Below, piece after piece: positions 6,375-18,402 of a DNA stretch of 64,000 nucleotides (positions are counted from its first letter, which is position 1; the number at the start of each line of letters is the position of its first letter). The notes beneath the pieces were generated by a model that was not told the origin of the DNA, searched no databases, and saw only the letters and a list, made by a program, of their open reading frames with translations. The position numbers and the translations under genes were made by a program. This stretch comes from Verrucomicrobiales bacterium (GTDB taxonomy: Bacteria > Verrucomicrobiota > Verrucomicrobiia > Verrucomicrobiales > DEV007): the NCBI GenBank assembly GCA_029212615.1, contig JARGPJ010000005.1, positions 124,001-188,000 on the forward strand, given 5' to 3'.

Positions 6375-7748
6375 TCACTCCCCGGCCCGAAGTCTCTCGT
6401 CACCAAGATCGAGTCGGTAGAGAATCTGATTGTAATCATGCCTCGGAGTCGGCTCCGAAGCTTGTGAAAAGCTCGCGGTGTAAGTGCCTTCGAAGTAGAT
6501 GACCTTTCCGTCGTCGCTCGCGAAGTAGGGATGCTGCTTCGGATTGTAGAAGGAATAGCGGTCGTGGGTGACGACTTTCACGCAGCGGTTCCACGGGCCG
6601 AAGGGAGTCGCAGCTTCGGCATACCACACTTCTCCCAGTTGAGACGGGGCGGTGTCTTCCTTTTCGATTCTCGTTTCGGTGAAGATCATGACCCATCGCT
6701 CCCGATACTGGTTCCAGGCCAGCGATCCGCGGTGAGGGACCACCTCACGCCCTTCGTCATCGACGAAGTTCGATCCCGTTTCGAGTCGCTCATACTGCCC
6801 GGGATCCAGCCACGCTTCGTAGCGCGCGGGAATTTTTACGGTAGGCAGAGGGTCGGCGTAGAGAATCCATTCTTCGCCGTTTTCATCTTCGTACGGAACC
6901 GGATGCCCCAGATGTTTCAGCTCCATTGCCGGATCGAAGGGGAAATGTTGTTTAAACGTTCCCGTCTCATCATCGAACTCACAGAGGCCCGTTTCATAGA
7001 GTTCCAGAAAACCTTTCACTTTCTGGTACATGGCACCGAGATGCTCCCTGCCGTTCTTGTCCGAAAGCACCGTTAATCCCGTCAACCAGGTCGGCCCTTC
7101 ACCCGGCATCTTCGCGACAGATCGAACGAAACCCTCCCCGTTTTTCAGGTACTGCAGATCGATTCCCCGCTCCGGATCCCGGGGGAGTTCCGAAGTCGCG
7201 CCGGTGGCATGGAAGTTTCCCAATGGATAGCTCAGTCGTTTCGTGTCGCCCCAGACCCATATCAGTTTACCCTTGTAGACGGCATTGAGAACACTGTCGC
7301 AACCGAGCACGCCTCCCCTGAGGCCCCGCCGGAAAGGTGGAATCTCCAGGCCTGCTTTCTGCGCGTGAATAAACCGTCCGCCGCCCGTGACACGGTAGAG
7401 GCGCTCGGCGATATTGAGACGCGTCACCTTAATCTCGGCGCGCCCCCCGGGGACCAGCTTCAATTTCCTGCCCGTCATTCCAAACGCATCTGGAGGGAAC
7501 GTGTAGCCGTGACTCTTCACAAAGAAGAAGACCTCCTCATTCAAGCACTCGGGATCATCAATCGCAACGACCCCGAGGTTGTCCGTTTCATAACGAACGT
7601 GATGAGTCGTTCGCAGTTCGACGAGAGGGACAGGGCGGCCGCTCACTTCATCGACAACATGAATCGTAAACGGGTCCAAGGCCATCGCGGCCCCCGGCAG
7701 GGCCGCAGCTGCGAGGATGAAAATCAGGCAGACAGATCGAAGCTTCAT
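6375..7748 (-). CDS. Secreted beta-propeller-like protein (DUF4185/glycoside-hydrolase-like)
   Basis: Signal peptide MKLRSVCLIFILAAAALPGAAMA; GKLIWVWGDTKRLSYPLGNFHATGATSEL, EVWYAEAATPFGPWNRCVKVV. Confidence 0.55.
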   Translation of the reverse strand: MKLRSVCLIFILAAAALPGAAMALDPFTIHVVDEVSGRPVPLVELRTTHHVRYETDNLGVVAIDDPECLNEEVFFFVKSHGYTFPPDAFGMTGRKLKLVPGGRAEIKVTRLNIAERLYRVTGGGRFIHAQKAGLEIPPFRRGLRGGVLGCDSVLNAVYKGKLIWVWGDTKRLSYPLGNFHATGATSELPRDPERGIDLQYLKNGEGFVRSVAKMPGEGPTWLTGLTVLSDKNGREHLGAMYQKVKGFLELYETGLCEFDDETGTFKQHFPFDPAMELKHLGHPVPYEDENGEEWILYADPLPTVKIPARYEAWLDPGQYERLETGSNFVDDEGREVVPHRGSLAWNQYRERWVMIFTETRIEKEDTAPSQLGEVWYAEAATPFGPWNRCVKVVTHDRYSFYNPKQHPYFASDDGKVIYFEGTYTASFSQASEPTPRHDYNQILYRLDLGDERLRAGE

Positions 7749-7928
7749 TCCTTTGATCCTATCCTCTTCGATCACCAGCAGAAGCTCAAAAGGCTCATCA
7801 AATGCGTTAACACCTCCGGAGAGATCCCCGGCGTCGATTACCCGTCCGGCCCCTTACATAGCGTCAATGGGGAGAATTTCCCACTGGAACAAACGTTTGC
7901 GCTCTCTACATTATTTGTCCTGAAATCA

Positions 7929-9380
7929 ATGAAACGCCTTCCACTGAATCTTCTTTCCACCCTCTTCCTCCTCTCTTCGTTTGCCCTGCAGACGGCGGTG
8001 GCGGCAGAAACCTCCCGGCCAAACATTCTCTTCATCGGATTTGATGACATGCGTCCTCTCATGGGTTGCTATGGCGACCCTGTCGCGAAGACGCCGAACC
8101 TGGACGCGTTCGCAAAACGCTCCGTTCTCTTTTCAAACGCCCATGTCCAGCAGGCGGTCTGCGCCGCGTCGCGGGCCAGCTTTCTCACCGGCTGCCGTCC
8201 GGAGACTACCGGCGTCGACTACCCCTACACCAAAGAGTTTGAGACCACCTTTATCAAAGATCACCCGACGATCACGACCCGCTTTCACGACGAAGGCTAT
8301 TTCACGAGAGTGATCGGAAAAATTCATCACGGCAGCCTTGACGAACCTCTCTCAGCCCCCATCTACAAGCGCTTCACCCTGCACGGTCACATTCTCCCGG
8401 AAAACAAGAAGCTGCGACAGGGACAACGACAGCCCTTCGAGCACCCTGAAGTCGCCGACAACGCCTATGCCGATGGGCTCCTCGCAGATGAAACCATCAA
8501 GACGATCCGTCAGCAGAAGAAGAATGAAGATCCCTTCTTCCTCGCGGTCGGGTTCTTTAAACCACACCTCCCCTGGAACTGCCCGAAGAAATATTACGAC
8601 CTCTATCAAACCAGCGAAATGCCGCTCGCGAAGGTCCGGGAACTGCCGGTGGACGGATTTCCCTGGTCGACTTACCACGTCGCGGTCAACGCCTACGCCG
8701 GTCCGGATCCGTCAAATGAGAACATTCTCAAGGACAAACGTTCCCGCCAGCTGATCCACTCCTACTACGCCTGCATGAGCTATGTCGACGCTCAGTTCGG
8801 ACGGATCATCGACGAGCTCGATCGACAGGGTGTAATGGACGATACCATCATCGTTGTCTGGTCCGATCACGGGTATCACCTCGGTGAACAGGCGATGTGG
8901 GGAAAATCCGCCAACTTCTTTCTCGATACCCATGTCCCTCTCCTCGTTTACACCCCTACGCTGAAGACGGCCGGGGAAACCAGCCCCGCCCTCGTCGAGT
9001 ATGTAGACCTCTACCCCACCCTGACAGAACTGGCCGGTCTCGGCACCCCTGACTACCTCGAGGGAACAAGCCTCACCCCGCTCCTCGAAGCACCCGACCG
9101 TGAATGGAAATCCGCCGTCTTTGCCCAGTACCCGCGTCATGACCGGGAGGGCTTCGTCGTTCAAACAAAAGACTACCGTTATATCGAGTGGCGGGAACGC
9201 TCGGAAGGTGGCCCCATCGGAGAAATCCTCGGTCGCGAGCTTTACGACCATCGGACCGACCGATACGAAGCGCGAAACCTCGCCGGGGAAGCCGACTTCC
9301 AGGCAGTCGTTTCGCAGATGTCTCAACAACTGGCCGATGGCTGGAAAAGCGCCCTTCCACCCGTTTCCGGAAAAGAGTAA
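7929..9380 (+). CDS. Sulfatase (iduronate-2-sulfatase-like)
   Basis: RPNILFIGFDDMRPLMGCYG...AVCAASRASFLTGCRPETTGV; signal peptide. Confidence 0.92.
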   Translation: MKRLPLNLLSTLFLLSSFALQTAVAAETSRPNILFIGFDDMRPLMGCYGDPVAKTPNLDAFAKRSVLFSNAHVQQAVCAASRASFLTGCRPETTGVDYPYTKEFETTFIKDHPTITTRFHDEGYFTRVIGKIHHGSLDEPLSAPIYKRFTLHGHILPENKKLRQGQRQPFEHPEVADNAYADGLLADETIKTIRQQKKNEDPFFLAVGFFKPHLPWNCPKKYYDLYQTSEMPLAKVRELPVDGFPWSTYHVAVNAYAGPDPSNENILKDKRSRQLIHSYYACMSYVDAQFGRIIDELDRQGVMDDTIIVVWSDHGYHLGEQAMWGKSANFFLDTHVPLLVYTPTLKTAGETSPALVEYVDLYPTLTELAGLGTPDYLEGTSLTPLLEAPDREWKSAVFAQYPRHDREGFVVQTKDYRYIEWRERSEGGPIGEILGRELYDHRTDRYEARNLAGEADFQAVVSQMSQQLADGWKSALPPVSGKE

Positions 9381-14848: not shown

Positions 14849-14908
14849 GCGAGTGGTCTATCGCAAGTTGACCCGTTCCCGATCCGCAAGGCCGGGAGCG
14901 AATCTACA

Positions 14909-14996
14909 GGGACAGGTTATTAGTCGCGATTAGTCGCGTTCTTTGCTGCGATCCGTCCATCGATAGCGGGAACGCGGTCAACAGATAACCTGTCCC
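14909..14996. repeat. REPIN-like palindromic repeat, copy A (10-bp internal duplication)
   Basis: gggacaggttat...ataacctgtccc termini with inner cgcgttc/gaacgcg; near-identical to copies B and C. Confidence 0.9.
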
Positions 14997-15049
14997 TTGG
15001 GGACTACGATTCGAAAGGGCGGGAGCGAATCTACAGGGACAAATCTACA

Positions 15050-15127
15050 GGGACAGGTTATTAGTCGCGTTCTTTGCTGCGATCCGTCCATCGATAGCGG
15101 GAACGCGGTCAGCAGATAACCTGTCCC
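15050..15127. repeat. REPIN-like palindromic repeat, copy B (78 bp)
   Basis: gggacaggttattagtcgcgttctttgctgcgatccgtccatcgatagcgggaacgcggtcagcagataacctgtccc. Confidence 0.92.
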
Positions 15128-15361
15128 TTGGGGAAACTTAGTTCACAGGACTGCTAGAGTTACGCTCCTGAAGACTAACACGGCACCATTTTTCTCTTTT
15201 TAAACTCGGTGAGGCATTGCTATGCCCAAATCGCTGCTCTGAAAAAAGATGATATCTCCCCTTGATCTCATCTGATGCTTCTGACCCTCTGCCACCACAA
15301 GCGGGATTTGAGCAAATCATCTCGACAATCATAAAGTAATATTGCAAATATCCACGCAATA

Positions 15362-18032
15362 ATGAAAGCGCGAGATTTAACGGAAAGATTAGGTGGGAAG
15401 AAACAGAAGTCGGTTTTGGATCTAGCGAGATTAATTGATAACGGCAACGAAAACATGCCAAATTTCTCACTTCTTATTGGAGCTGGGGCTTCTCGACCAA
15501 GTGGTATTCGAACTGCAGCAGAAATGATCGAGAAGTGGCGTTGGGAAATCTTCTGCGAAATAGAAAATGCGCCGACGCTTTCGCGGGATGAGCCCGACGA
15601 AATTAGGAAGTGGCTAACAGAGAACGAAAAAAGTTGGTATCAACCAGATTCAGAATACTCAAGTTTGATAGAGAAAATATACCCGGTTCAACGATCGCGC
15701 CGGCTGTTCATCGAGTCGGAGGTTGAAGGAAAGCTGCCTTCAATCGGATATTCATATCTCGTCCGACTCGCAGAAAACAATAAAATTAACAGCATATTTA
15801 CTACCAATTTCGATGACTTATTAAATGAAGCATTTTATCAGTTTTCGACTGAACGACCAATCGTGTGCGCACACGACTCGTCAGTTAACAGCATAACAGT
15901 GACCTCAAGTAGAGCAAAAATAATAAAGCTCCATGGCGATTACCTATTTGACGACCTTAAAAACACGTCGAAGGAAACACAGAATTTAGCAGAGAATATG
16001 AAGCTAAAATTCAGGGAGTTTTTAAAAGAGTATGGACTAATCGTCTCTGGTTACTCAGGCGGAGATCAATCGGTTCTTTCTCAGCTCGATGAAATGATCG
16101 ACACTCCAAATTTTTTACAAAATGGTCTCTACTGGGTCTTTCGCGAAGATGATAACGTAAGCTCAAATGTGCTCCAGCTGCTTGAAAAAGATGGATCATT
16201 TTTCGTTCTGTCAGAGGGGTTTGACGAACTTTTTGCAGGACTATACGAGAAATTGGTAAACAAATCGGCGCCATTCACTTCTCGAGTCGCTAGCGACAGG
16301 GCAGGAGAGGTAATTGAGAGCTACCTCACAAATCCAATCCTCACAAATTCAGGTTCAAAAACTATTTCGAGACATTTGGAAGAACTCCGTGCCGATCGAA
16401 ACAGCTTCCTTGTGACAGATGCGATAAATGAGCTTTCATCCGAGAATGAGGAAGATGTGAGATTAAAAGATGGGGAGGTCCTTGTTTTCCTTGAGGTCGA
16501 AAAATTAATTCGGGCGAGGAGCATGCAATCCGCTTTCGATTCAATACAAAATCGAGTCGAGAATTGCGAAGGAAAGATATTGAAAAAGCTGCTTCTGCGT
16601 AAGGCGTTTGAATGTGCTGTAAGCCTAAATAGAAGAAAAGAAGCACTCTCGTTTGCCGATCAAAGCATCGAACTCGACCCCGAAAACTATTTTATCCATC
16701 TTCGGAAAATCCAGGTGGTAGAGAATCGGGATGAGCGTCTATCAATTCTCGAAAGCGTCATGGCCCGGTCTCCATTCGACGAGGTAGTAGTCAACCGATA
16801 TGCCAAAGAATTGTGGGCGAAATTCAAGGGGCCGAATGAAACCGGCGACCCAGTAAAATTAGAAGATGTCGAAGATGCTTTTCGGAAATCGATAAATCTC
16901 AATCCAAGTATAGAGAACTACGCATACAGACAATTGTTCGATTTTCTTTTAGAGAATCAAGACCAGATCGACAACTACAAGGAGAAACTAATAGAAGTTT
17001 TAGACGCTCACCTAGTCCAAGACGCCTTCAATTCAAGCACAACCTCTCTAATGTTTGACTATGGGAAGAATGAGCAGAAAACCGAATTCCGTGGTAAAGA
17101 AATCATCGACTACGTAGTGGACGGATTCAAAATGCACTACCCGAAGAATTACACCTCCCATCTTTCAAATCTAAAAGAGGCTTGTACATTATTCTCGAAC
17201 TTTAGCCAGTTCCGTAGTGCGCTTTCTATTTGTGAAGGAATCGAAGAGCTAAAGCATGATGACCTATATGTTTACCTCAAGATGACAATTCTCTACGACA
17301 ATTCTCTACGACAATTGCCGCGATATTTATGCCGCTATTGAATTGGGTGAACGGTATATCAAAGGCCGAAAATCGGTAAGGGTTGAGAAGTATCTTGTAA
17401 ACTTGCTTTGTCGAGCTGGAAGCATTGAGAAAGCTAGGACTAGATTAGAAGCGCTAAAGGGAGGGTTAAGTCTTCGGCAATACTTCGAGCTAAAATCCGA
17501 AATACTTGAGTTTGAAGGGCGTTTTGCTGATGCTATCGATGCCATCTATTCGATTCCGGATCGGCTTGAATTTACTGAAGACTACACAACGCATCTTACG
17601 TATTTGTATATGAAATCGGAGCAGTTTGAGAAAGCTTTTGAAATTTCGAGTTCATTCCTGAAAGATAGAAATTATAACCCTAATTATCGGGCTGATATAA
17701 TCAATCGGGAGTTCTCTAAGAAAAAGCTTGGTCGAAATCCTAAGGTTCAAAACTTAAATAGAATAGTCGAAAATTCAGCATCTGATCCAGACTGCCGTGC
17801 GGGGGCACTACTTGTTTTAGGTGAGCATGACCAGGCTTATGAAATTTTCAGATCTGAATCAGATAATGATTTCTCAAAGCTGGAAGGTTATTTAAGATGG
17901 CCGATAGCGCAGGTAATTTCCGACAAACTCGCGGCTCTACGCGATTCTTTGACTTCATCTAAGCGAACGTTGGATGAACTGGTATCAATTGAAAGCGGCT
18001 CGAAAATTTCGGGGTCAGGCGACATTTCCTGA
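15362..18032 (+). CDS. SIR2-like NADase domain + C-terminal TPR-like repeat protein (defence-type), split by a frameshift near 17.3 kb (ORFs 15362-17341 and 17343-18032)
   Basis: FSLLIGAGASRPSGIRTAAEM, IFTTNFDDLLNEAF, IIKLHGDYLF, GLIVSGYSGGDQSVLSQL are SIR2_2-type motifs; Leu/Ala-rich helical repeats follow; deleting one 13-bp repeat copy joins the two ORFs. Confidence 0.85.
17285..17310 (+). repeat. Exact 13-bp tandem duplication (acaattctctacg x2, followed by partial acaatt)
   Basis: Read directly from sequence; sits at the ORF junction. Confidence 0.97.
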
Positions 18033-18039
18033 ATCTACA

Positions 18040-18117
18040 GGGACAGGTTATTAGTCGCGTTCTTTGCTGCGATCCGTCCATCGATAGCGGGAACGCGTTC
18101 AACAGATAACCTGTCCC
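18040..18117. repeat. REPIN-like palindromic repeat, copy C (78 bp)
   Basis: gggacaggttattagtcgcgttctttgctgcgatccgtccatcgatagcgggaacgcgttcaacagataacctgtccc; differs from copy B at two bases (gcgg/gcgt, cagc/caac). Confidence 0.92.
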
Positions 18118-18402
18118 TTGAGGAAACTCTGTCCCTTGGGGAAACTCGCACGGCCCCCAAGGGCATGAGCACTCGCATAACGAAGAGTAGCGAATTCGTC
18201 CGAGTGTTCGGGGTGAGCCCGGCTGATTCTTTCGGTGTGGCCGGCTTGCCCGGTTAAAAGGTAGAGGATGTATTCCGCAAAATTCCGGGGCCGAGTTCAT
18301 TCGCGCCTGTCGAGCGGGCGAGCTGACCCTGTTGCGTTGGTGAAGTGACACAAGAATCACAAGGGACAGGTCCCGAAAAGTTATTAGCTTCCGAAAATCA
18401 AA

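Follow-up and report, generated by a model that had tools for sequence, protein, structure and literature searches.

A SIR2 Gene Interrupted by a Tandem Array

The window, by which we mean the whole 64-kb stretch of DNA analyzed, carries two consecutive frames, ORF1 and ORF2, with an exact tandem array close to the end of the first (Table 1). TRF describes the array as 33 nt with a period of 13, 2.5 copies, and a 100% match, and thus as a non-triplet repeat inside the ORF of the SIR2 gene. The exact back-to-back 13-bp duplication that the earlier note on this DNA had claimed at 17285–17310 was recovered by TRF as well as by exact match search: the 13-mer ACAATTCTCTACG is present in two adjoining copies, 17285–17297 and 17298–17310. 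The pair occurs nowhere else in the window and in 0 of 100 shuffled controls, and the chance expectation for an exact run as long at one shift is ~3e-7 per 400 kb.

Table 1. Features of the SIR2 locus in window coordinates
Feature	Position	Strand	Description
97-bp REP/BIME-like element, left copy 1	14911..15007	+	79% identity
97-bp REP/BIME-like element, left copy 2	15042..15138	+	Reference copy
ORF1	15362..17341	+	659 aa; SIR2-like NADase-type domain (~30–300) and first part of helical (TPR-like) solenoid
Codon of N149 in FTTNFDD	15806..15808	+	Conserved SIR2 asparagine; invariant in 15 homologues (N147 in reference row)
Codon of H191 in KLHGDY	15932..15934	+	Conserved SIR2 histidine; invariant in 15 homologues (H189 in reference row)
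Exact tandem array, the lesion	17284..17316	+	(GACAATTCTCTAC)x2 + GACAATT; +13 bp, +1 frame
ORF2	17343..18032	+	229 aa; rest of solenoid in native frame; TTG start nominal only
97-bp REP/BIME-like element, right copy	18032..18128	+	97% identity; starts on the final base of the ORF2 stop codon

The number of 13-bp units determines how far the frame runs. With zero, one, two (as found), three, and four units, it has 663, 885, 659, 676, and 898 codons, respectively, so that four units restore the frame just as one does. Scored against the nearest homologue, the one-unit form fits best, at 1762 compared with 1417 for the form found, and the ~885 codons contain no further stop or frame break. The earlier claim that dropping one 13-mer rejoins about 880 aa thus stands, refined to 885 codons, and so does the frame offset attributed to the duplication, as ORF2 continues the protein in its native frame. 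Residues 1–647 of ORF1 are native and its final 12 are out of frame, ending in MTILYDNSLRQLPRYLCRY and the stop; the shift by 13 bp hence adds 12 foreign residues and a stop codon, leaving a SIR2 domain with about half its solenoid. The lesion strips ~238 C-terminal residues, the family's invariant positions among them. A programmed frameshift was considered and rejected: no homologue needs one, and inspection by eye, without scoring, showed no good slippery site from the array to the stop.

Evidence for a Single Ancestral Gene

Relatives of similar length encode the protein in one piece. All 32 relatives of 840–920 aa, some of them near-duplicates of each other, are single ORFs, among them Pantoea WP_031590801 with 869 aa. 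The nearest relative, from a Verrucomicrobiaceae MAG of the same order (L002/L036), is a protein of 868 aa that is 43% identical in the N-terminal part and 34% in the C-terminal part. We assigned ORF2 to the solenoid by tblastn of residues 633–867 of this homologue onto the second frame and by conserved columns. The family-invariant C-terminal positions, IN-E (N774) and W-P (W838; nearest-relative numbering), both fall within ORF2, and none of the aligned relatives carries an insert at the lesion site. A plasmid search using ORF2 alone gave no match, as expected for a fast-diverging solenoid. As the long relatives are all single ORFs and the C-terminal invariant residues all lie in ORF2, the origin of ORF1 and ORF2 as one gene is well supported by sequence comparison, in agreement with the earlier proposal of one gene split by a tandem duplication. 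The ancestral state would have been single-copy, judging from homologues at ~40% identity.

This comparison bears on two other readings of the frames. That they are two independent genes we reject, given that every relative this long is a single ORF. A working split pair, in which ORF2 is translated after ORF1 by termination–reinitiation and the two parts assemble, would draw on the spacing of the ORF1 stop and the ORF2 TTG, which lie 1 nt apart (TGA-A-TTG, 17339–17345), and on a second frame open across 229 codons. The TTG is, however, a native leucine codon with no Shine–Dalgarno-like sequence seen ahead of it, full-length relatives are uninterrupted, and the comparison with homologues that the earlier note had suggested turned up no two-ORF relative with matching parts. 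We regard a split pair as very improbable.

The gene is patchily distributed. Any match was found in 7 of 96 related genomes, its own included, and just one other genome matches most of the query, a pattern that fits an accessory gene. Further relatives were found on plasmids and in prophage-like contigs. Vibrio phage 10N.286.45.B12_PE001 (L033) has a SIR2-domain gene flanked by a CI-like repressor and a P2/186-type integrase, a position where accessory genes typically sit in P2-like prophages. The GC content of the gene is 42%, compared with 55% for the window.

A Putative Defense Protein

ORF1 matches the Pfam family SIR2_2 (PF13289) with E = 3.8e-14 and 53.4 bits, against a curated cut-off of 24.5, and retains both the asparagine and the histidine of the NADase site, N149 and H191 aligning with N147 and H189. 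PADLOC matches in ORF1 are to the SIR2 models of SIR2-pAgo and PDC-S65. In the AlphaFold2 model of an intact relative (L036; mean pLDDT 83.7), the SIR2 fold spans residues 1–300 and helices continue to residue 857, and the break maps to approximately residue 645–650. Together, the domains make the product probably an anti-phage defense protein of SIR2 plus TPR-like architecture, an assignment made by homology.

Its resemblance to known defense systems is partial. The nearest solved SIR2 domain, both by sequence (E = 2.6e-25) and by fold, is the SIR2 subunit of SPARSA (PDB 8jkz, 8in8); SPARSA, however, has an APAZ/pAgo part, whereas the gene studied has a helical solenoid at the C terminus instead. 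The PADLOC matches to SIR2-pAgo are confined to the SIR2 region, with one model reaching residue 421 and none extending beyond. We reject the identification as SPARSA, as the APAZ domain and an adjacent pAgo gene are both missing. DSR2 likewise has a SIR2 effector at its N terminus and a long helical sensor part after it, and its chains ranked second in the fold search, but global similarity is low (TM ~0.2, 9–12% identity) and DSR2 is absent from the PDB sequence matches, for which reasons this identity was also rejected. PDC-S65, a candidate SIR2 defense protein in PADLOC, matches with E = 1.1e-32 in the SIR2 region alone.

Flanking Repeats and Neighborhood

Direct repeats of 97 bp, each containing an imperfect palindrome, bracket the SIR2 gene (14880–15138 and 18032–18147). 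The full element has three copies in the genome, all of them at this locus, while its first 20–30 bases recur in genomes of the same genus; 16 copies of GGGACAGGTTAT were counted in 1.6 Mb of the genome. Eight Y1-transposase-like genes (PF01797), mostly in frames of ~350 aa, are found in the same genome (L095–L102) and may act as partners of the REP-like repeats. Tandem duplications of 10, 14, and 18 bp lie within the flanking repeats at 14919–14938, 15028–15055, and 18111–18147, bringing the short tandem duplications in the ~3.2 kb around the gene to four; a scan of 400 kb gave four exact non-triplet arrays whose period is 10 bp or more, and three of them lie here. The stop codon of ORF2 (18030–18032) overlaps the right-hand repeat, its TGA being inside CCTGAATCTACAGGG, and the final residues of the protein may therefore be repeat-derived or altered. 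Truncation of the C terminus by this repeat was rejected: the repeat affects no more than roughly the last dozen residues, and the conserved W-P motif is kept.

Neighbors of the SIR2 gene are a GH43 gene and an ORF with no Pfam match. In a comparison aimed at an empty site, the downstream neighbor was found encoded in relatives, and in the short loci covered the other five window neighbors examined did not lie next to it. A promoter and terminator scan gave nothing exceeding chance.

Origin and Age of the Duplication

Replication slippage typically uses a short direct repeat as its template. The single-copy form of the gene would read GACAATT-CTCTAC-GACAATT, that is, a 7-bp direct repeat with a spacing of 13 bp, and mispairing of the two GACAATT copies during replication would duplicate one 13-bp unit. 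For a junction formed independently of microhomology, the probability that a simple 13-bp duplication would be followed by 7 further matching bases by chance is ~5e-4. Such repeats are themselves ordinary: across 400 kb of the genome, pairs of 7-bp repeats at distances of 8–30 bp have a density of 2.1 per kb, by which measure the SIR2 gene, with five, is not special.

We compared the array with others in the genome. A scan of 1.6 Mb found 24 exact arrays with periods of 8–80 bp that are not multiples of three, and the SIR2-gene array is the only one of these whose collapse gains at least 100 codons. A triplet-period array (L156) also passes the 100-codon threshold, but solely by switching to another frame, on the opposite strand. 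Two exact duplications inside long ORFs, of 13 bp at L146:5263 and of 11 bp at L157:4410, have two copies as the in-frame state; collapsing either shortens the frame, marking these non-triplet arrays (period at least 11 bp) as native. Tandem arrays as such are thus not rare in this genome, and a frame-breaking one is.

The earlier note had also allowed for an assembly or culture artifact. An assembly, amplification, or polishing error, with the organism itself having one copy, is conceivable in a single assembly that is a draft (21 contigs, 93.84% completeness). Against this, a blunt join error has no need of the extra 7 bp, common reads are all longer than the array, at 33 nt, and 1.6 Mb of the genome holds no other array of this sort breaking an ORF. 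The microhomology speaks for a slip of biological origin rather than a blunt join made in assembly, without amounting to proof, and makes an artifact less likely; we consider it unlikely.

The absence of a second stop or frame break in the ~885 codons suggests that the event was probably recent. By a rough estimate, neutral drift to 1% divergence would leave the frame free of nonsense mutations with a probability of 0.24, and drift to 2% with a probability of 0.06. The probable history would start with the horizontal acquisition of a single-gene SIR2 plus TPR-like defense protein of ~885 aa, which a single slippage step in a living cell would recently have inactivated. The truncated protein would no longer work as an anti-phage sensor, and the lesion may persist since the loss of a costly defense gene is tolerated. 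The identity between the repeats is now 20 bp, which would permit reversion through the same slippage, as a by-product of the lesion rather than as a sign of an evolved switch.

Broken Genes in Relatives and the Question of a Switch

The gene is not the only one of its kind to be broken. Three other relatives carry three types of lesion, namely a poly-A slip, multiple frameshifts, and a transposase insertion. In the first (L068), a poly-A tract has a length of 8 compared with 7 in an intact counterpart (L064; 97–99% identical), both being SIR2-TPR genes on viral contigs. The second (L038) has at least two frameshifts. In Desulfospira joergensenii (L040), ~1.4 kb with a transposase ORF, which by its protein motif looks IS256-like, interrupts the homologue at about 6830–8209. 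That several relatives are independently broken suggests that the protein has been lost repeatedly, and repeated loss via varied lesions would fit costly accessory defense genes.

A reversible contingency switch, in which the 13-bp unit usefully expands and contracts and the population keeps both on and off cells, would explain the same array differently. The array is a suitable substrate, its unit not being a multiple of 3 and its repeat identity being 20 bp, and it is plausible that a suicidal NADase would be subject to such a switch. There are also published precedents in the reversible in-ORF duplications of pneumococcal capsule genes (cited in PMC4243769), and in the tetranucleotide slippage of icaC (PMC4117637). 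If a switch were kept, however, relatives should retain the repeat and alleles should appear, and neither was found. None of the 17 intact relatives has a non-triplet tandem array with a period of at least 8, on which ground a conserved switch motif was rejected; the nearest relative has no repeat at the lesion site, repeat pairs like that of the single-copy form are commonplace, and other broken relatives have unrelated lesions. The 96 related genomes, a first scan of genome contigs, and a search of viral contigs by exact DNA yielded no close relative and no second allele. We therefore consider a maintained switch improbable, and give slightly less credence to a specific form of it, in which slippage turns a single-gene NAD-depleting defense protein on and off, the duplication represents one of the two states, and the switch is retained because being on is costly and being off leaves the cell phage-sensitive.

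The earlier note had offered three readings, of which recent loss of function is best supported. For the reversible off-switch no positive evidence was found, the repeat being unconserved, no second allele having turned up in the genomes and contigs searched, and relatives breaking by unrelated lesions. What we see looks like an ordinary recent mutation that broke the gene and might be undone by chance; of an evolved on/off switch there is no sign. On balance, we find it probable that the duplication is a recent slippage-driven loss-of-function mutation in a costly accessory defense gene, revertible in principle. It would be a clean example of an accessory defense gene silenced by one slippage event with a one-step path back remaining; at present the case is that of a single broken gene, alongside several relatives that were broken independently. 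If populations with mixed one-copy and two-copy forms exist, they would tie abortive-infection genes to phase variation.

Comparison with Known Phase-Variable Genes

Two systems with frame-altering repeats allow comparison. Spontaneous sequence duplications in the pneumococcal capsule genes cap3A, cap8E, and tts are reported to cause high-frequency phase variation (Waite et al. 2001, 2003; cited in PMC4243769). There, as in the SIR2 gene, a tandem duplication inside the ORF turns the product off and is reversible in principle; reversion and phenotype were shown by experiment for the capsule genes, whereas the SIR2 gene is represented by one sequence of a putative defense effector. In icaC of Staphylococcus aureus, tetranucleotide slippage with RecA-independent reversion has been shown (PMC4117637). 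Both icaC and the SIR2 gene undergo, or appear to have undergone, frame-shifting slippage in a costly gene, but icaC has a short unit in several copies, whereas the SIR2 array consists of two copies of a 13-bp unit and a 7-bp remnant and is unconserved.
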